Below, one piece after another: positions 28,307-62,982 of a stretch of 64,000 nucleotides of DNA (position 1 is the first letter of the stretch; each line of letters begins with the position of its first letter). A program made the position numbers and the translations under genes. Source of the stretch: Bacteroidales bacterium. GTDB lineage: Bacteria > Bacteroidota > Bacteroidia > Bacteroidales > WCHB1-69. The notes under the pieces were generated by a model. The model worked only from the letters and a program-made list of their open reading frames with translations, was not told the origin of the DNA and searched no databases. Where the stretch lies: NCBI GenBank assembly GCA_016285145.1, contig JAEEQE010000006.1, positions 23,310 to 87,309 on the forward strand, given 5' to 3'.

Positions 28307-28346
28307 GTAAAAATGTGGCGAAAAATGTATCTTTCATCTGTTATTC

Positions 28347-28374
28347 GTAGAGGCGCGCCATGGCACGTCTCTAC
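28347..28374. repeat. Intergenic 28-bp palindrome of the GTAGAG...CTCTAC family
   Basis: The two 14-base arms are complementary apart from two G-T wobbles, with CCATGG in the centre. Outer arms and total length match the palindromes found inside the FISUMP genes (44376, 44569, 44698, 46824). It lies between the divergent valS and rlmN promoters. Confidence 0.85.
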
Positions 28375-28415
28375 ATAGGGCAATTTCTTATGCCTGTGTA
28401 TATTCGGAATTTATG

Positions 28416-28423
28416 TACATTTG
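28416..28423 (+). promoter_or_regulatory. -7 promoter box (TACATTTG) of rlmN
   Basis: An exact box 24 bases before the ATG at 28448. It overlaps the in-frame ATG at 28421, which therefore cannot be the start. Confidence 0.75.
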
Positions 28424-43522: not shown

Positions 43523-44938
43523 TCAGTCCTTCACACAACGCACGGATCTACCCATAGAAGGAGAGTCAGAAAATCCATAAGTTGACGAATCATCATATTG
43601 AAAGGCCCAACCAAACGGTTCCGATTCACCTGAAGAAATTGATGAACTCCAAAAATGACACTCTTCACCTTCATCCTCATATAAATAACCATAAGGATAA
43701 AAAATACCCGCCGGAACGGCGGAAAAGCCCGTGGCATTGTTCATATTCGGATTGTTGCCTGGAGTACATGGGTTGTCACAATAAAACCAACCCACATCGG
43801 ATGCAAGAGCCTTGGCTATGTTACCATAGTAACCGCATCCATATTCGCTTTGCAAAAACAAATAGTAAATCAACTGCAAAATCTCCTCCTCGCTGGGCAC
43901 ATGCCAGCCCGTGGGGCAGATGCCCTGCACGCCGCTGGGGTTGGCATCAGAGGCACTGTCACCGTGCATCACCGCCGGCCAGTTGTACAGGTAGCCACGA
44001 TAATACAAGGGAATGGAGGAAGTGTCGTTATCGTAATAATATGGGTAGGTTTCACTATAACTTTGGCCTAGAGGAATGGGGGTGCCATCGTCATAATGCG
44101 TAGTGCGCAGGTTAAACTGCATCCAGCACTGCTGGCCTATCTTCACCGTGTTATATATGTTGCCGTCGTAGTCGGTGACCACAGGGGCGTCCGAACAGGG
44201 AAGGGCATCCCCCGGTGCCGGCAGAGGTGTGGTAAATGGCAACAGGATCATCCCGCCTTCGGTTTGGTATTGTGTCATGGATTGGCTGGCAATTCCACGG
44301 GCATACGCCACATAGCGCATATAGTCGCCCAATTGGAACGGGTGGTGGGAGGAACCCTTGGCGGATTTTGTCCTTGTAGAGGCGTCATAATATGGCGTGG
44401 AGGCGTCATAGTATGGCGCCTCTACAATGCCATCGTATTCCACGGCATCCTTGCCACCGTTGCCGGTGTTCAACAATTTTGCGGACAGGGTTTTGCCGTT
44501 CACGCGGGCCGTCAACACGTAGGTGCCCGGCGTGCGCAGCGCCACGCGCAGATTATGGGTGCCTTGCTGTAGAGACGCGATTAATCGCGTCTCTACGACA
44601 TGTCCGTTCACATCCGCAACCTCCACCTGCACGTCGCCGGGTTCCGGCATTTGCAGGTTCACCGTGGTGGTGCCGTTGAAGGGGTTGGGGGTGGTCTGTA
44701 GAGACGTTGCGCGCAACGTCTCTACATCCTCAATGCCCGTCCACACCGTCAGATTATATTGGGTGTCAGGGTAGTGCAGCGTCTCCGTCCACCCGCGAGT
44801 GATGTTCTCCACTATGATGATGTCGGGCTGCACCCACGTTCCGTCCACCATACGGCAGGAGAAAGTCAGAGACAGACTCTGCGCCATCGCGCCCGCACTT
44901 AACAGCATCATCGCAATAAGGGTAAAGATCTTTTTCAT
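43523..44938 (-). CDS. FISUMP-domain secreted protein carrying three in-frame palindromic elements
   Basis: 471 residues. Signal peptide (MKKIFTLIAMMLLSAGAMA), then an N-terminal beta region, then a T9SS/FlgD-like Ig domain at about 84-157 (TTPNPFNGTTTVNLQM ... GTYVLTARVNGKT), then one FISUMP domain from ~255 to the end (VTDYDGNIYNTVKIGQQCWMQFNLRT ... LYNWPAVMHGD ... GVQGICPTGWHVPSEEE ... ATGFSAVPAG ... SVRCVKD). FISUMP domains are typical of surface proteins in Fibrobacter and Bacteroidota. Residues 72-81, 115-124 and 172-188 are encoded by palindromic repeats (44698, 44569, 44376). Third of three tandem paralogues; ligand unknown. Confidence 0.87.
   Translation of the reverse strand: MKKIFTLIAMMLLSAGAMAQSLSLTFSCRMVDGTWVQPDIIIVENITRGWTETLHYPDTQYNLTVWTGIEDVETLRATSLQTTPNPFNGTTTVNLQMPEPGDVQVEVADVNGHVVETRLIASLQQGTHNLRVALRTPGTYVLTARVNGKTLSAKLLNTGNGGKDAVEYDGIVEAPYYDASTPYYDASTRTKSAKGSSHHPFQLGDYMRYVAYARGIASQSMTQYQTEGGMILLPFTTPLPAPGDALPCSDAPVVTDYDGNIYNTVKIGQQCWMQFNLRTTHYDDGTPIPLGQSYSETYPYYYDNDTSSIPLYYRGYLYNWPAVMHGDSASDANPSGVQGICPTGWHVPSEEEILQLIYYLFLQSEYGCGYYGNIAKALASDVGWFYCDNPCTPGNNPNMNNATGFSAVPAGIFYPYGYLYEDEGEECHFWSSSISSGESEPFGWAFQYDDSSTYGFSDSPSMGRSVRCVKD
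44376..44425 (-). repeat. Palindromic element in frame, with internal 21-bp duplication
   Basis: Outer arms GTAGAGGCG...CGCCTCTAC bound a 50-base element in which a 21-base unit is duplicated; removing one unit leaves a 29-base near-perfect palindrome like the others. Read on the minus strand it encodes VEAPYYDAST followed by a second PYYDAST. Confidence 0.8.
44569..44596 (-). repeat. Perfect 28-bp palindrome encoding VETRLIASLQ
   Basis: Arms GTAGAGACGCGATT and AATCGCGTCTCTAC are exact reverse complements. It lies in the T9SS/FlgD-like domain of the FISUMP protein, at the place where a paralogue (49720 region) has ordinary non-palindromic sequence of the same length. Confidence 0.9.
44698..44725 (-). 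repeat. Perfect 28-bp palindrome encoding VETLRATSLQ
   Basis: Arms GTAGAGACGTTGCG and CGCAACGTCTCTAC are exact reverse complements. It encodes the linker just before the PNPF motif and uses the same reading frame as the element at 44569. Confidence 0.9.
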
Positions 44939-45028: not shown

Positions 45029-45075
45029 CTCAAATCCATTCACTGTTCACTAATCACTGATCACTATTCACTATT
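45029..45075. repeat. Heptamer repeat starting at the stop codon of the middle FISUMP gene
   Basis: On the minus strand the TGA stop is the start of the first unit: tgaaata, gtgaata, gtgatca, gtgatta, gtgaaca, gtgaatg. The same arrangement follows the FISUMP gene at 47311. Confidence 0.85.
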
Positions 45076-47202
45076 TCAGTCCTTCACGCAACGGACGGAA
45101 TTCCCGCAGTCCTTGGGACCGGCGCTCCTGAGCACATCAGCGGCGCCGTAATAGAGATTGCGGGAGTAGGCGTTTGTGCTATTGTTCTGGGACTGGGTAG
45201 TGCTCCAGAAGTTTGCGTTGTAGGTGAGACCGTAGTAGTAGCCTCTGTATTCGCCAGCGGGAATGGCCGAAAAACCTGTGGCATTGTTCGCGTCCGGATA
45301 GCTGCCAACAGAATAAGGCACCGAACTGTATTCCCAGAATGATGTCGAAGCCAACGCCCGGGCAATGTATGTGCTATTGTTGTCCCAATAGTACTGGCTT
45401 TGGCTGCCCACATAGTCTTCCAATTGTGTCCACTCCGGATCGCTGGGCACATGCCAGCCGGTGGGGCAGATGCCTTGTACCCCAGAGGGGTTGGACAAAC
45501 TGCTGTTCGCCCCATGCATCACGGCAGGCCAGTTGTACAGGTAACCTCTGGTCTGCCAGGGAATATTGGATGTGGAATGATCGTAATAGTAGGGGGCACT
45601 GTCGCTTTGTGTTGTGCCAGTGGGAATGGCTGTTCCATCTGCGTAATGCGTGGTGCGCAGGTTATGGCGCATCCAGCACTGTTGGCCTATCTGAACTGTG
45701 GGATACACATTGCCATCGTAGTCGGTGACCGTAGGGGTGCCCGGACAAGAATTATGGAGCCCCACGGGATCATAATCATAATAATCACGAAGGCAGCGGA
45801 CGGCACACGCGTCGGCATGGCCTGCCCCTGCATAGTTATACGCATCGGGGATATCGTACTCCATATAAAAGAAACTACCATAACTGGTGGCACCCGAAGA
45901 GGACCAAATATAGGCACGGTATCCTAAATTACAGAACCCCGAGTCAAAATAGCCGCCCGTCGGGAATACACTAAAACCAGTGGCGTTGTTGTCCGCCGTA
46001 TTGTTACCCACAGCGCATACGGAGGTGCTCGGGTTCCAATCAGCGTCAAAAGGACCGGTTGCGAGCGCTTTGGCGATATTATCCTCATTCCCGCCACATC
46101 TATATTTGGGACGACTTTTCACATAGTCTATCAACTGATCCCACTCCGCCTCGCTCGGCACATGCCAGCCGTTGGGACAAACACCCTGCACACCGGAAGG
46201 GTTGGCATCGGAAGGAGTGGCACCGTGCATCAACGCCGTCCAATTGTACAGAAGGCCGCGTTGGGTCCACCACATAAGCCATCCCTCATATTCGTAATAG
46301 TATGGGGAGGTGCTGCTGGTGACCGGGGTGCCCGAGCCTGATACAGACGACCCTCCGGAAGGGATGACCGTGCCATCGGCAAAGTGCTTGGTGCGCAGAT
46401 TCGACATCATCCAGCACTGTTTCCCAATCCGGACCGTTTGGTAAACATTACCTTCAACATCCCTGAGAATAGGAATTTCCGGACAGTTTACACCATCCTG
46501 AACCTCCGAAAACTTCAACGATATCGTTTCCGAGGAATTTTGTGATTGGATTATAGGATAACTTTCCACCGCCTCCCCGTCAAAAGTGGCGTAGCCCCTA
46601 TATTCCATCTGATCACTGTAATTGAACGGATGGGTGATGTGGCCCTTAGGGGCATTTTTCAGTTGGAAGGCATTGTCCGCCATACCGGAGTATGCCACCG
46701 CATCCGCACCGCGTCCCCGATGGCACACCATCTTCATCGATGTGCTTCGTCCCGCCTGACGGGCCGTCAGGAAATAGACACCCGCCGTGGACACTGAAAC
46801 GCGCAACTGGTGCACACCCGGTTGTAGAGCCGCGATTGATCGCGTCTCTACGATGCGTCCGGTAATATCCGTCATCTGCACCGTCACGTCCCCGGGCTCT
46901 GCCACCTGCAGATTTACGAAGGTGGTGCCGTCAAACGGGTTGGGATAGTTCTGCGAAAAGGCGAAATCCTTTCCACCAACATAATCTTCAACGCCCACCC
47001 CATTCTGAATGGTCAGAACCGTATCCGGCCAATAGAGGGTCTCCTGCCAGTGCTTGGTCCTGTTGGACACCACCACACTGTCGAGCTTTTTGTCGTATCC
47101 GTTGTAATCTTTTCCGACAAACGTCAGCGTTACCGTTTGCGCCATCGCGCCCGCGCAAAGTAGCAGCAGCGCGATAAGAGTAAAGGTCTTTTTCATATTC
47201 AC
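45076..47202 (-). CDS. Secreted protein with two FISUMP domains and one in-frame palindrome
   Basis: 708 residues; the start may be Met1 or Met3. Signal peptide (MKKTFTLIALLLLCAGAMA), N-terminal beta region, a T9SS/FlgD-like domain at about 87-160 (YPNPFDGTTFVNLQV ... GVYFLTARQAGRS), then two FISUMP domains (first from ~ILRDVEGNVYQTVRIGKQCW, second from ~VTDYDGNVYPTVQIGQQCW), each with the GVQGxCPxGWHVPS and ATGFS...P.G blocks. Residues 118-127 (VETRSIAALQ) come from the palindrome at 46824. As in its neighbours the sorting-like domain is near the N-terminus rather than at the end. Confidence 0.88.
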   Translation of the reverse strand: MNMKKTFTLIALLLLCAGAMAQTVTLTFVGKDYNGYDKKLDSVVVSNRTKHWQETLYWPDTVLTIQNGVGVEDYVGGKDFAFSQNYPNPFDGTTFVNLQVAEPGDVTVQMTDITGRIVETRSIAALQPGVHQLRVSVSTAGVYFLTARQAGRSTSMKMVCHRGRGADAVAYSGMADNAFQLKNAPKGHITHPFNYSDQMEYRGYATFDGEAVESYPIIQSQNSSETISLKFSEVQDGVNCPEIPILRDVEGNVYQTVRIGKQCWMMSNLRTKHFADGTVIPSGGSSVSGSGTPVTSSTSPYYYEYEGWLMWWTQRGLLYNWTALMHGATPSDANPSGVQGVCPNGWHVPSEAEWDQLIDYVKSRPKYRCGGNEDNIAKALATGPFDADWNPSTSVCAVGNNTADNNATGFSVFPTGGYFDSGFCNLGYRAYIWSSSGATSYGSFFYMEYDIPDAYNYAGAGHADACAVRCLRDYYDYDPVGLHNSCPGTPTVTDYDGNVYPTVQIGQQCWMRHNLRTTHYADGTAIPTGTTQSDSAPYYYDHSTSNIPWQTRGYLYNWPAVMHGANSSLSNPSGVQGICPTGWHVPSDPEWTQLEDYVGSQSQYYWDNNSTYIARALASTSFWEYSSVPYSVGSYPDANNATGFSAIPAGEYRGYYYGLTYNANFWSTTQSQNNSTNAYSRNLYYGAADVLRSAGPKDCGNSVRCVKD
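46824..46851 (-). repeat. 28-bp near-palindrome encoding VETRSIAALQ
   Basis: GTAGAG...CTCTAC arms with one mismatch and one wobble; same position in the T9SS/FlgD-like domain and same frame as the perfect palindrome at 44569, so either it was inherited before duplication or inserted at the same site. Confidence 0.85.
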
Positions 47203-47261: not shown

Positions 47262-47313
47262 ATCTATTCACTGTTCACTAATCACTGATCACTGATCACT
47301 GTTCACTATTTCA
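47262..47313. repeat. Heptamer repeat starting at the stop codon of the FISUMP gene at 47311
   Basis: On the minus strand the TGA stop opens the array: tgaaata, gtgaaca, gtgatca, gtgatca, gtgatta, gtgaaca, gtgaata. It resembles the array after the next FISUMP gene, with one unit more. Confidence 0.85.
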
Positions 47314-50085
47314 ATTGTTGCGGAGACAACGCACAGAAAGACCATATCTCATATCGGAGCTATCCCTGTGCATGGAGGCACTGTCATTAACGAGAGCGCG
47401 AAAGAAACACCAACCGCTGTTATAATTCTTGGTAGAACTCCAGAAGTAAGTAGCGATGCCGAGATTATAGTATCCATAAATGCCAGCGGGATAGGCCGAA
47501 AAGCCTGTAGTATTGTTTGAACTCTGGTTATTGCCCACATTACATATATTGGAGGAGCTGCTTTCCCAACCCGAAGCAGAAGCCAATGCTTTGGCTATAT
47601 TGTCGCTGCTGGCACCACATACATACAGGCTGTTGCCACTCACAGAGTTTTCTAACTGCGTCCACTCCGCGTCGCTCGGCACATGCCAGCCATTAGGGCA
47701 GATGCCCTGTACCCCACTGGGATTGGTGGTGCTGCTGCTCGCCCCATGCATCACGGCAGGCCAGTTGTAGAGGTATCCCCTGTCTGACAAGGAAATGTTA
47801 GTGGTGGGATAATTGTAATAGTAGGGGACAGTAGTACTTCCAGATGAGCTGGTGGAGATAGAAGTTCCATCTGCAAAGTGTGTGGTACGCAGGTTCGACT
47901 TCATCCAGCACTGGTTCCCGATCCCCACCGTATTATAAACATTGCCATCATAATCGCTCACCGTGGTCTGGCCGTGGCATGCACCAGTCGTGAACTCCAT
48001 CACGTCACCGTAAACTGTACCGGCACCATTTCTGGCATAAGCACGTACATAATATTTTGTGTTGCTCTCTAAATTATCATATCTAATAGAAAAACTACCC
48101 AGATGGTAATGATAATAGGAGGGCTCATTAGAAACCAAATGGCAGTCGTCACCATTTTCTGTAGGGTTGGGCAATCTGCTATAAATCATGCCGCGAACAT
48201 AATGCTCACATTGAGCACTACCCTTTGAGGTTACCGTGCCATGCAGAATAATGGCATTTGGATGGCCTGGGACACTAGAGACCGAATCCGTACGCACCGA
48301 AGGAACCTCATAGTACAATATCACATCATTGCCGTACACCACCGTGCCGGCGGCAGTCTTGGCGTAGGCCCGCATGTGATAGATGCCCTCCGTCAGCCCC
48401 GTGATATCATCGGTGTAGATAAAGCCGGGGCCCGAACTGACCTCCACATGGTTGCCGCCCAACGTGGGATTGGCATAGATACTCCAGCACACACCTTTCT
48501 GCACTATCGGTGCACCACCGTGGGACGTGACATATCCATAACAACTGGCTCGACCCATAGATGCATAATATTTCACGCTGTCGGTGGTCACCGTGGGAGG
48601 GGTCGTCTCCTGCTCGTCGCGAAGGCAACGCACGGAGCATCCGTCTGCACCAGTCGAAGGGTTCACTAATACAGTTGGTGAGTTTGTTACAACCCAGGGA
48701 CCATACACCTGTGAGACATTTACGTATGGATCATAAATGATTCCAAAAGAGCTCCAAAACTTCGTCAAATCGCCGAAGCCACTGGTGGCGCCATTGGTGA
48801 GGGTTCCTGCAGGAAAGGCTTCAAATCCAGGGTAGAAGTTGTCCTCTGCGACAATGTCTGCAAAGCCGTTGGAGGAGGGATCGTTGCCCGGAGCGCAAGG
48901 CACACTGTTGGCACTCCAGACTTCCGCCTTCGTCGCCATTGCCTTGGCATTGTATCCTACAACTCCATTGCAGACATATTCGTCGCGGCTGTTCAGATAG
49001 TTCAGCATCAGTGTCCACTCGGCAAGACTCGGCACATGCCAGCCGTTGGGGCAGATGCCCTGCACCCCACTGGGAATCTCGTTGCTGTAGGAGGCCCCGC
49101 GCATCACCGCCGCCGAATTGTACAACAAACCGTAGGACCCTGAAACGGTGGGGTTCCCGTTCGGATAGTAGTAGTAGCCCGTCTGGTAGGATGTCATTAT
49201 GTTCGAGAGGTTCTGGTCCCCGCGTGCAATGGGCGTGCCGTCCGGATAGTGTCTGCTGGCGAGGTTTACCCCCATCCAACACTGGTGACCCACCCACATC
49301 GCGATATAACTGTTGTTGTCGTAGTCGTACACATAACCGTTGTTGATGCAGTTCGTCCCGTCGCGTGTGGGGAACCACAGCGTCACCGTCTGCGACATCA
49401 ACGAGCCTGTCTCACGCAGGCTCTTAAACGCGCGGGTCGGCATGGGCTCGCCCCACACGGCATGCGGATAGTCGTTCACCGTGATGTAGCCCACATACTG
49501 CAACGAGTCGCCGTAGTCCCACGGATGGCTGCCATAGACCTTCATCTGCGACTTGCCGTTGGCGGCGCCCGTCATGCCCACGTACTCCAGAGTGTTCGCA
49601 CCGCCGTTACCGCGGCTCACCATCTTCACCGTCGAGGTGCGGCCGTTCTGCCGCGCCGTCAGGAAGTAGAGGCCCGCGTTGGCGAGTGTCACGCGCAGCT
49701 CGTGCGCACCCTCCTGCGGGGATTCGATGCGTAGTGTCTCCACCACGCGCCCGAAGATGTCCGAAATCTGCACCTGCACATCGCCGCGGTCCGTCACGTT
49801 CAGCGTGGCGCGCGTCTCGCCCTCAAAGGGGTTGGGCCTGTTCTGCGTCAGGCCGAAAGCGCCCGTCTGCACATAGTGCTCCACGCCCGCGGGCGAGAGT
49901 ATGAGGCGCAAGTCCGGCGCATACACCGTCTCCGTCCAGTTCTGCGTCAAGTTGGTCACCACCACGCTGTCCATCTGTACAGCCTGGTCGTTACCGTCCA
50001 TTCCTTCAAAGCTAATCACTACCTGTTGCGCTGGCAACAGCAGCACCATCAGCATCATCGCGATAAGAGTAAAGGTCTTTTTCAT
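47311..50085 (-). CDS. Secreted protein with two FISUMP domains separated by Ig/fibronectin-like repeats
   Basis: 924 residues. Signal peptide (MKKTFTLIAMMLMVLLLPA), N-terminal beta region, T9SS/FlgD-like domain at about 78-150 (NRPNPFEGETRATLNV ... GLYFLTARQNGRT), a FISUMP domain (YDYDNNSYIAMWVGHQCWMGVNLAS ... GVQGICPNGWHVPSLAEW ... CSVRCLRDE), two Ig/fibronectin-like repeats (TVTTDSVKYYASMGRASCYG; VRTDSVSSVPGHPNAI) and a C-terminal FISUMP domain ending SVRCLRNN. First gene of the three-gene FISUMP group, expressed from the box at 50119. At the palindrome site of its paralogues it carries VETLRIESPQ from non-palindromic DNA. Confidence 0.88.
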   Translation of the reverse strand: MKKTFTLIAMMLMVLLLPAQQVVISFEGMDGNDQAVQMDSVVVTNLTQNWTETVYAPDLRLILSPAGVEHYVQTGAFGLTQNRPNPFEGETRATLNVTDRGDVQVQISDIFGRVVETLRIESPQEGAHELRVTLANAGLYFLTARQNGRTSTVKMVSRGNGGANTLEYVGMTGAANGKSQMKVYGSHPWDYGDSLQYVGYITVNDYPHAVWGEPMPTRAFKSLRETGSLMSQTVTLWFPTRDGTNCINNGYVYDYDNNSYIAMWVGHQCWMGVNLASRHYPDGTPIARGDQNLSNIMTSYQTGYYYYPNGNPTVSGSYGLLYNSAAVMRGASYSNEIPSGVQGICPNGWHVPSLAEWTLMLNYLNSRDEYVCNGVVGYNAKAMATKAEVWSANSVPCAPGNDPSSNGFADIVAEDNFYPGFEAFPAGTLTNGATSGFGDLTKFWSSFGIIYDPYVNVSQVYGPWVVTNSPTVLVNPSTGADGCSVRCLRDEQETTPPTVTTDSVKYYASMGRASCYGYVTSHGGAPIVQKGVCWSIYANPTLGGNHVEVSSGPGFIYTDDITGLTEGIYHMRAYAKTAAGTVVYGNDVILYYEVPSVRTDSVSSVPGHPNAIILHGTVTSKGSAQCEHYVRGMIYSRLPNPTENGDDCHLVSNEPSYYHYHLGSFSIRYDNLESNTKYYVRAYARNGAGTVYGDVMEFTTGACHGQTTVSDYDGNVYNTVGIGNQCWMKSNLRTTHFADGTSISTSSSGSTTVPYYYNYPTTNISLSDRGYLYNWPAVMHGASSSTTNPSGVQGICPNGWHVPSDAEWTQLENSVSGNSLYVCGASSDNIAKALASASGWESSSSNICNVGNNQSSNNTTGFSAYPAGIYGYYNLGIATYFWSSTKNYNSGWCFFRALVNDSASMHRDSSDMRYGLSVRCLRNN

Positions 50086-62627: not shown

Positions 62628-62970
62628 GTAAAGACGTCACACCGTGGCGTCTCACAAAAAAAAAGGAAACCGTAAAGACGTCACATCGTGGCGTCTCAAC
62701 AAAAAAGAGGAAACCGTAAAGACGTCACACCGTGGCGTCTCATCAAAAAAAGAGGAAACCGTAAAGACGTCACACCGTGGCGTCTCACCCCAAAAAAGAG
62801 GAAACCGTAAAGACGTCACATCGTGGCGTCTCACCCCAAAAAAGAGGAAACCGTAAAGACGTCACACTGTGGCGTCTCAACAAAAAAAGAGGAAACCGTA
62901 AAGACGTCACACCGTGGCGTCTCACCCAAAAAAAGGAAACCGTAAAGACGTCACACCGTGGCGTCTCATC
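62628..62970. repeat. Tandem array of eight hairpin units (44-46 bp period)
   Basis: Units begin at 62628, 62672, 62716, 62761, 62807, 62853, 62898 and 62942. Each has a hairpin AGACGTCAC-loop-GTGGCGTCT (nine pairs, one G-T) preceded by GTAA, followed by an A-run and GAGGAAACC. The stems are invariant; only the three-base loop (acc, atc, act) and the A-run length vary. The core resembles a decayed version of the GTAGAGACG...CGTCTCTAC palindrome. It fills the 362-base gap between two genes. Open frames through it are period artefacts. Confidence 0.9.
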
Positions 62971-62982
62971 AAAAAAACAGAT

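Follow-up and report, generated by a model that had tools for sequence, protein, structure and literature searches.

Double-foot REP palindromes at fixed codons of FISUMP proteins in a Bacteroidales genus, with probable in-frame exchange of palindrome type

We analysed a 64,000-nucleotide stretch of contig JAEEQE010000006.1 from a Bacteroidales bacterium (the window; its genome is G000), in which a gene of the FISUMP family carries short palindromic elements that are translated in frame. Such elements occupy fixed codon positions in FISUMP proteins of the genus, and different palindrome types stand at the same codon in close homologues. The reading we consider probable, taken as a whole, is that the elements are double-foot repetitive extragenic palindromes (REPs; 28 or 29 bp, GTAG...CTAC) of the kind associated with subclass 2.4 of the TnpA_REP proteins, or REP-associated tyrosine transposases (RAYTs), that they have spread as such, and that a resident palindrome has been exchanged for another type at least a few times with place, length and frame kept. 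The element and its tolerance within proteins are already known. Its seating and type exchange in FISUMP proteins and in proteins with type IX secretion system (T9SS) domains look new; we found no description of either in literature that included few subscription journals and no supplementary files.

The gene lies at 43523-44938 on the minus strand and encodes a 471-aa FISUMP protein (TIGR02145, E 8.8e-27; TIGR04183, E 1.5e-7; also PF09603 and PF18962) with an N-terminal T9SS-like sorting domain at residues 84-155 and three palindrome sites. Site 1, directly before PNPF, is a perfect 28-bp palindrome at 44698-44725 (14/14 pairs, centre TTGCGCGCAA) encoding VETLRATSLQ; site 2, in a hairpin, is another at 44569-44596 (14/14 pairs, centre CGATTAATCG) encoding VETRLIASLQ. 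Both are translated from the minus strand as GTA GAG. Site 3, at 44376-44425, is not a perfect palindrome: it is a composite, VEAPYYDASTPYYDAST, of a 29-bp sister subfamily and an in-frame 21-bp tandem duplication, and G041, a close relative, has 54 bp (18 codons) more than the window gene at this place. A first-pass annotation had given the coordinates, sequences and translations of these elements, among them the two perfect palindromes, exactly. It had listed three elements and a further copy between genes; all four are present, but 44376 is the composite just described, the intergenic copy (28347-28374, a GCCATGGC variant) is imperfect with 12/14 pairs, and a copy at 46824-46851 had been overlooked. 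The latter (12/14 pairs, VETRSIAALQ) lies in the adjacent 708-aa FISUMP paralogue (45076-47202, minus strand; PF09603 and PF18962), at site 2 like the 44569 element. At site 2 of a third FISUMP paralogue (47311-50085, minus strand, 924 aa) the peptide is VETLRIESPQ, and no palindrome was detected in the DNA coding for it.

To describe these positions across the genus we took FISUMP loci from the 30 matches listed and from 60 further stretches, selected 101 N-terminal domains and aligned the 95 distinct ones (a partial second stretch, L075, was dropped; L059, L088, L091 and L106 have no alignment row of their own, L088 repeating L060). Two fixed codon positions hold palindromes: site 1 ahead of PNPF, and site 2 in the hairpin that follows G[RH][IV]V. 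With at least 10/14 pairs, phase 0 and a start of GT or TT, palindromes were present in 13/95 domains at site 1 and 26/95 at site 2, six types at each, a scan that overlooks L096 and L110 at site 1. Scanning all frames gave 19 at site 1 and 33 at site 2, with phase 0 in 17/19 and 30/33; the five off phase 0 start with something other than GTAG. Under a 12-pair score of at least 11, the proportions were 7/95 and 16/95, compared with 13/719 for other segments of these domains, a background in which elements such as site 3 may be included.

At site 2 the palindrome occupies a native segment, whose length it mostly leaves unchanged. That segment has 14 residues in 24 of the 26 palindromic domains, with 18 and 26 in the remaining two, and domains without a palindrome have 14 residues in 45 of 69 cases and 13 in 24. 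The earlier description of the elements as inserted oversimplifies this. The puzzle of how a 28-bp insert gains or loses the two bases needed to keep the frame therefore mostly does not arise there. An AlphaFold2 model built from the three window paralogues only (mean predicted local distance difference test score, pLDDT, 62.7) places site 2, residues 115-124, in a predicted strand at 114-123 (block means 80 and 79). Sites 1 and 3 fall where the score is mostly below 50. The model fits a site 2 that belongs to the protein fold, and is too weak to bear much weight.

The clearest case of exchange is the trio L096 (G000), L110 (G018) and L123 (G014), which have one site-2 type and three different 28-bp palindromes at site 1, of equal length in an ungapped alignment with conserved flanks (the L110 palindrome is imperfect). 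For the window gene itself, the orthologue in G041 has the same palindrome at 44569 as G000, and the orthologue in G018, the other close relative compared, has one of the 29-bp type. The palindrome at 44698 is the same in G018, with other palindromes at that codon in paralogues. Among the sequences at site 2 is GTAGGGGCGAATMATTATTCGCCCCTAC, which encodes VGANHYSPLQ. The close paralogues L117 and L118 show about 30 bp with a palindrome versus 24 bp of unrelated sequence at site 1; palindrome-free copies may be either decayed, as L144 looks to be, or native. On a quick, long-branched tree with the sites masked, and with types labelled by our own string rules, at least seven type changes are needed at site 2 and at least six at site 1.

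The palindromes are dispersed well beyond these genes. In the G000 assembly (2.73 Mb, 71 contigs, 94.8% complete), GTAGAGN{8,34}CTCTAC matched 29 times versus 10 for the reversed control, and 28 of the matches form 11-14 pairs out of 13 or 14 (the remaining one, C40:1749, forms 10/17). Tighter spacing, N{16,17}, gave 27 matches versus 3. Within the window the looser pattern matched four times against 0.02 expected, a number reached in 0/100 shuffles. A chance origin was rejected on these window and genome counts. In 24 genomes of the same genus, G000 included, the N{16,17} pattern occurred 6-274 times each (control, 0-3), and a second subfamily, GTAGGGGCG...CGCCCCTAC, was present in 29/40 genomes of the genus at up to 26 copies each. 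The possibility allowed for in the first-pass annotation, that the element is found nowhere else in the genome, is thus contradicted by the 29 matches in G000 and by copies in relatives and other phyla.

The exact 28-mer of 44569 occurs in at least 118 stretches of named genomes, of which we examined 80 loci containing 82 sites. Its hosts among the matches listed include Nostoc, Calothrix, Crenothrix, Flavobacterium and Bacteroidales, as well as Patescibacteria, Spirochaetia, Abditibacteriaceae and Calditrichota; the exact 28-mer of the window spans Bacteroidota, Cyanobacteria, Gammaproteobacteria and Patescibacteria. A literature search for the 9-mer GTAGAGACG returned, among the matches listed, topics that were unrelated as judged by title and the start of the abstract.

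Several features place the elements among subclass 2.4 REPs, a membership judged here by motifs and not by position in the published tree. Quentin et al. 2018 (PMC6006769), in the passages used here, describe double-foot REPs of this subclass with 5' GT[AG]G and 3' C[TC]AC ends, hosts in Cyanobacteria, Bacteroidetes and other phyla, REPs in frame within tnpA_REP between the HuH motif and the Y as well as flanking the RAYT genes, and RAYT motifs NH[IFV]H, WQ and YIxNNP. Our elements are alike in their ends, their RAYT flanks, their in-frame RAYT copies and their host phyla. A cognate RAYT flanked by the same REP was found for the 29-bp subfamily of G000 and for several variants in relatives, a REP in frame between HuH and Y was found at 12/30 loci of the genus and in 12/27 open reading frames (ORFs) of the phylum, and the RAYT motifs are present, save that the final P is often V. 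Unlike our elements, those in the same passages are not reported from FISUMP, T9SS or Vsr sites, nor is exchange of REP type at a fixed codon. The passages used from Di Nocera et al. 2013 (PMC3733652) report GTAG and CGTC REPs within genes, in loops or linkers and in many repair genes, and, as in our data, differing REPs at about the same place of recB in two Xanthomonas species. Their GTAG hosts are Proteobacteria, Cyanobacteria, Chloroflexi and the PVC group, with Bacteroidetes listed for CGTC only, unlike here.

Very small palindromic repeats dispersed in cyanobacteria, the small dispersed repeats of Nostoc, were reportedly described by Elhai et al. in 2008. Cyanobacterial genomes also hold the exact window 28-mer.

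RAYT genes accompany the palindromes. In G000, the RAYT-like gene at C61:42118-42675 has a 29-bp palindrome in frame in the linker from HUH to YI..N and an identical one just upstream, and a second RAYT-like ORF, on C21, has a different palindrome in its linker. About ten degenerate half-palindromes, counted by eye, are arrayed directly upstream of the C61 gene (L023, 2700-3030). RAYT homologues were present in 23/40 genomes of the genus, G000 included. At 30 RAYT loci of the genus (L046 and L054 being a single gene), a GTAGAG...CTCTAC palindrome was present in 22 and lacking in eight; it lay inside the ORF in 12, in L041 in a possibly untranslated N-terminal extension. The variant differs from RAYT to RAYT, and inside and flanking variants are the same in several: GTGCATGCAC in L036, CGATTAATCG in L039 and GTGTGCACAC in L047. 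The CGATTAATCG variant accompanies a RAYT in other genomes only (L039 of G002 and L237 of G066).

The association extends to the phylum, taken to be Bacteroidota on the strength of the T9SS and FISUMP genes in G000. Using a profile built from 19 RAYTs, in whose alignment [DN]H[ILVF]H, WQ and YI..N are invariant and the last P is often V, we surveyed 198 genomes, G000 included: 84 had a RAYT, 31 had the palindrome and 26 had both. RAYTs thus occurred in 26/31 palindrome-bearing genomes versus 58/167 others (Fisher P = 5e-7, not corrected for kinship); single palindrome copies in this sample, as in G062, can be chance. The best 30 loci included 27 with an ORF, and 12 of these 27 (one of them from G000) held a palindrome, always between HUH and YI..N. 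Six had a palindrome outside within 600 bp, with inside and flanking copies the same in four, and the three loci without an intact ORF all had a palindrome. NF047646 matched 5/5 RAYTs scanned, one of them above the cut-off. IS200-type transposases on C51 and C9 (PF01797) were considered as movers and are not favoured; no palindrome was found in the stretches of about 2.2 kb around them (L026 and L027).

Palindromes also reside in frame in proteins unrelated to FISUMP. One of the three frames of the palindrome contains the stop TAG and two are open. At least 8 of 28 copies in G000 lie in frame within recognisable genes: the three window FISUMP copies, one FISUMP copy on C38, the two RAYTs, an esterase-like protein on C26 (in its T9SS tail; PF18962, E 3.9e-13) and a Vsr endonuclease on C40 (PF03852, E 1.7e-32). 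The T9SS and Vsr copies are read as GTA GAG, the RAYT linkers in both open frames. Of the 82 exact 28-mer sites, 28 fell in ORFs by a crude caller that includes some spurious short ORFs, 16 in one open frame, 12 in the other and none in the stop frame; four were in RAYTs. Other proteins around this 28-mer were an Ogt-type methyltransferase (L325), RecG (L250), an AMP-binding enzyme (L281), an E1-E2 ATPase (L269) and a T9SS tail (L290). The loop of the L325 ORF contains the 28-mer and another stretch that looks REP-derived. In the T9SS tails of L290 and L299 the 28-mer lies elsewhere in the domain (YPNPTNnVLF-VETRLIASLP), which, judged from the sequence, may be one more docking position of this family of domains.

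Of the 30 Vsr loci surveyed (L156-L185), 28 let us inspect the loop that separates HGH from CCKIP, or its position. It holds a GCCATGGC-type palindrome in G000, G055 and G018, a decayed one in G041 and TTTCATGAAA in G015. The other 23 loci have other loops, L168 and L174 resembling decayed REP peptides, and L182 has no loop. This loop is hypervariable in the genus, with two REP types and many other, partly repeat-like, sequences. A named Bacteroidales genome (L295; PF03852) carries the CGATTAATCG palindrome in the same loop.

Copies differ in presence between close relatives. The intergenic palindrome of the window belongs to an 88-bp unit (28332-28419, plus strand) made of the palindrome and a promoter-like tail, which is absent from G041 and G018; it has an imperfect 10-bp terminal repeat, within which its exact ends are ambiguous and which was considered in view of the target duplication that a classical MITE makes. 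G000, G041 and G018 all have further units like it, and the same tail is also accompanied, at comparable spacing, by other palindrome variants. Presence was compared at five places between G000 and these two relatives, with gene names given by reading of the sequence. A glycosyltransferase-like gene (L015) has its upstream copy in G041 and not in G018; the L019 unit is missing from G018 and interrupted by contig ends in G041; the C26 T9SS-tail copy is also in G018; and an adenosylhomocysteinase-like gene (L006) has its upstream copy in all three. The proposal of a palindrome family dispersed in and between genes, read in frame and varying in presence between relatives, is thus borne out. The promoter-like motif TGTGTATATTCGnAATTTATGTAnnTTTGC follows the REP palindrome by about 15-25 bp, with differing REP variants upstream of it, in the window unit (28332-28419) and in L005, L009, L019, L020, L198, L199, L202, L206 and L214. 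This compound looks like a mobile promoter unit.

A number of results weigh against the reading of RAYT-associated REPs exchanged at fixed codons. Four of the five scanned RAYTs score under the NF047646 cut-off, and two of the five gave no match to Pfam Y1_Tnp. No RAYT match (E 1e-10) was found in 17/40 genomes of the genus, some of them incomplete assemblies, and G003 has 154 palindromes and no RAYT match at that threshold; in the phylum sample a RAYT was not found in 5/31 palindrome-bearing genomes. Just 2 of 54 exact 28-mer sites outside ORFs had a RAYT within 400 bp, and in G000 no RAYT with CGATTAATCG, TTGCGCGCAA or GCCATGGC was found, its two RAYTs bearing other variants. As to exchange, 300 label shuffles gave a mean of 10.4 changes at site 2, none with seven or fewer, and a mean of 7.9 at site 1, where 11/300 had six or fewer. 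For the most part, therefore, a palindrome's type passes down with its gene. Since six types cannot arise with fewer than five changes, the excess is just two at site 2 and one at site 1. Finally, the codons around the exchanged 44569 site also differ in G018, which fits gene conversion.

Gene conversion or recombination among paralogous FISUMP genes is in fact a strong rival for the exchange step, although not for the identity of the element, and we give it a substantial chance, somewhat below even. G000 has at least 12 FISUMP-type matches, its paralogues L058 and L096 are both of TTGCGCGCAA type at site 1, and in G018 the surroundings of the exchanged site are more diverged. On the other hand, the block that differs among L096, L110 and L123 is about 28 bp, with ungapped flanks and site 2 still shared, the L096 and L058 copies differ in their arms, and the same variants also occur between genes. 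Rather improbable, in our judgement, is a single ancient palindrome per site diversified in place by stepwise compensatory mutation. Symmetric arm changes do exist (L096, GCAGAGGCG...CGCCTCTGC), many copies look decayed and types track the gene tree better than shuffles, but the site centres look like variants that lie dispersed in the same genomes. Copies of the TTTCATGAAA 28-mer, for instance, number 5 in G020, 12 in G040, 35 in G014, 57 in G006 and 3 in G005, counting exact copies that are docked, and there are none in 22/40 genomes, and the FISUMP sites of those five genomes hold TTTCATGAAA or similar types. This argument is weakened by G001, where a site-2 copy (L132) is one mismatch off the TTTCATGAAA 28-mer and there are no exact copies.

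The remaining alternatives concern the element itself. The first-pass annotation had likened it to Rickettsia palindromic elements, a likeness that stands for palindromic DNA translated in frame in unrelated proteins and fails for the tag and the RAYT, which are those of a double-foot REP. In the passages used from Di Nocera et al. (PMC3733652), RPE-4 and RPE-6 are among the CGTC-tagged repeats, without a dedicated transposase, and their sequence is different. A selfish repeat of that type, with a tolerated peptide and no dedicated transposase, would account for the in-frame residence, and is contradicted by the GTAG...CTAC ends and by RAYTs carrying the same palindrome; we regard it as very unlikely. 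Even less credible is an immobile sequence, either a T9SS hairpin that natively reads V-E-T....-S-L-Q, its palindrome selected for an mRNA or cruciform hairpin, or a coincidence. Palindrome-free paralogues are indeed equal in length and sometimes have similar peptides (VETLRIESPQ, VETRRIESPQ). However, these 28-mers also occur intergenically, within RAYTs and Vsr, and in other phyla. At that same codon, VGANHYSPLQ is encoded by the GTAGGGGCG subfamily, which is dispersed too, in 29/40 genomes.

Under the favoured reading of exchanged double-foot REPs, RAYTs of the genus, several with their own palindrome variant, would spread REPs through the genome, the RAYT presumably doing the moving as in the known model. 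Genic copies would persist in a TAG-free frame, at loops or hairpins where a peptide of ten residues is tolerated, such as the RAYT linker, the Vsr loop and the T9SS/FISUMP domain; the peptides are thus probably tolerated rather than selected. The two FISUMP positions would have been occupied by palindromes for a long time, their type mostly inherited and a few times exchanged. Such exchange was presumably direct replacement rather than loss followed by new insertion, and its route may have been any of three: RAYT, gene conversion, or loss and new insertion.

A more specific proposal, which we consider unlikely though conceivable, is that REPs are swapped foot for foot, either by a RAYT or by a single-stranded REP that behaves as a recombineering oligonucleotide does, so that the docking sites in FISUMP and T9SS domains serve as a frame-safe variation cassette. 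With 28 bp and the same GTAG/CTAC ends, such a swap would keep length and frame, and a beta-strand of a surface protein could be rewritten from a mobile pool in one step. The exchanged block of about 28 bp and the occurrence of the variants elsewhere in the same genomes speak for it. Against it stand the higher divergence near the G018 site, the fact that type is strongly inherited, and palindrome-rich genomes with no RAYT match (G003). Its likelihood is lowered because the shuffles show exchange to be rarer than inheritance.

Two further repeats were noted in the window. Heptamer-type repeats (TCACTGA/TCACTAA) occupy the spacers between the FISUMP genes at 45040-45072 and 47264-47308, and at 62628-62977 a 44-bp unit that contains a diverged REP-like palindrome, GTAAAGACGTCACACCGTGGCGTCTCAC, is present in 7.8 tandem copies.

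REPs are usually regarded as extragenic. Here REP variants stand at fixed codons of a large family of secreted proteins, and their type has changed without loss of frame, which makes the question of how RAYTs move REPs testable: every exchange is preserved at the protein sites together with its boundaries, and the unbroken frame tells that the outcome was true to length. VETxxxxSLQ, xRDxxxxVST and VGANHYSPLQ in these genera can be REP products and are not to be taken as functional motifs, and alignments and trees of these domains include transposon-derived segments.

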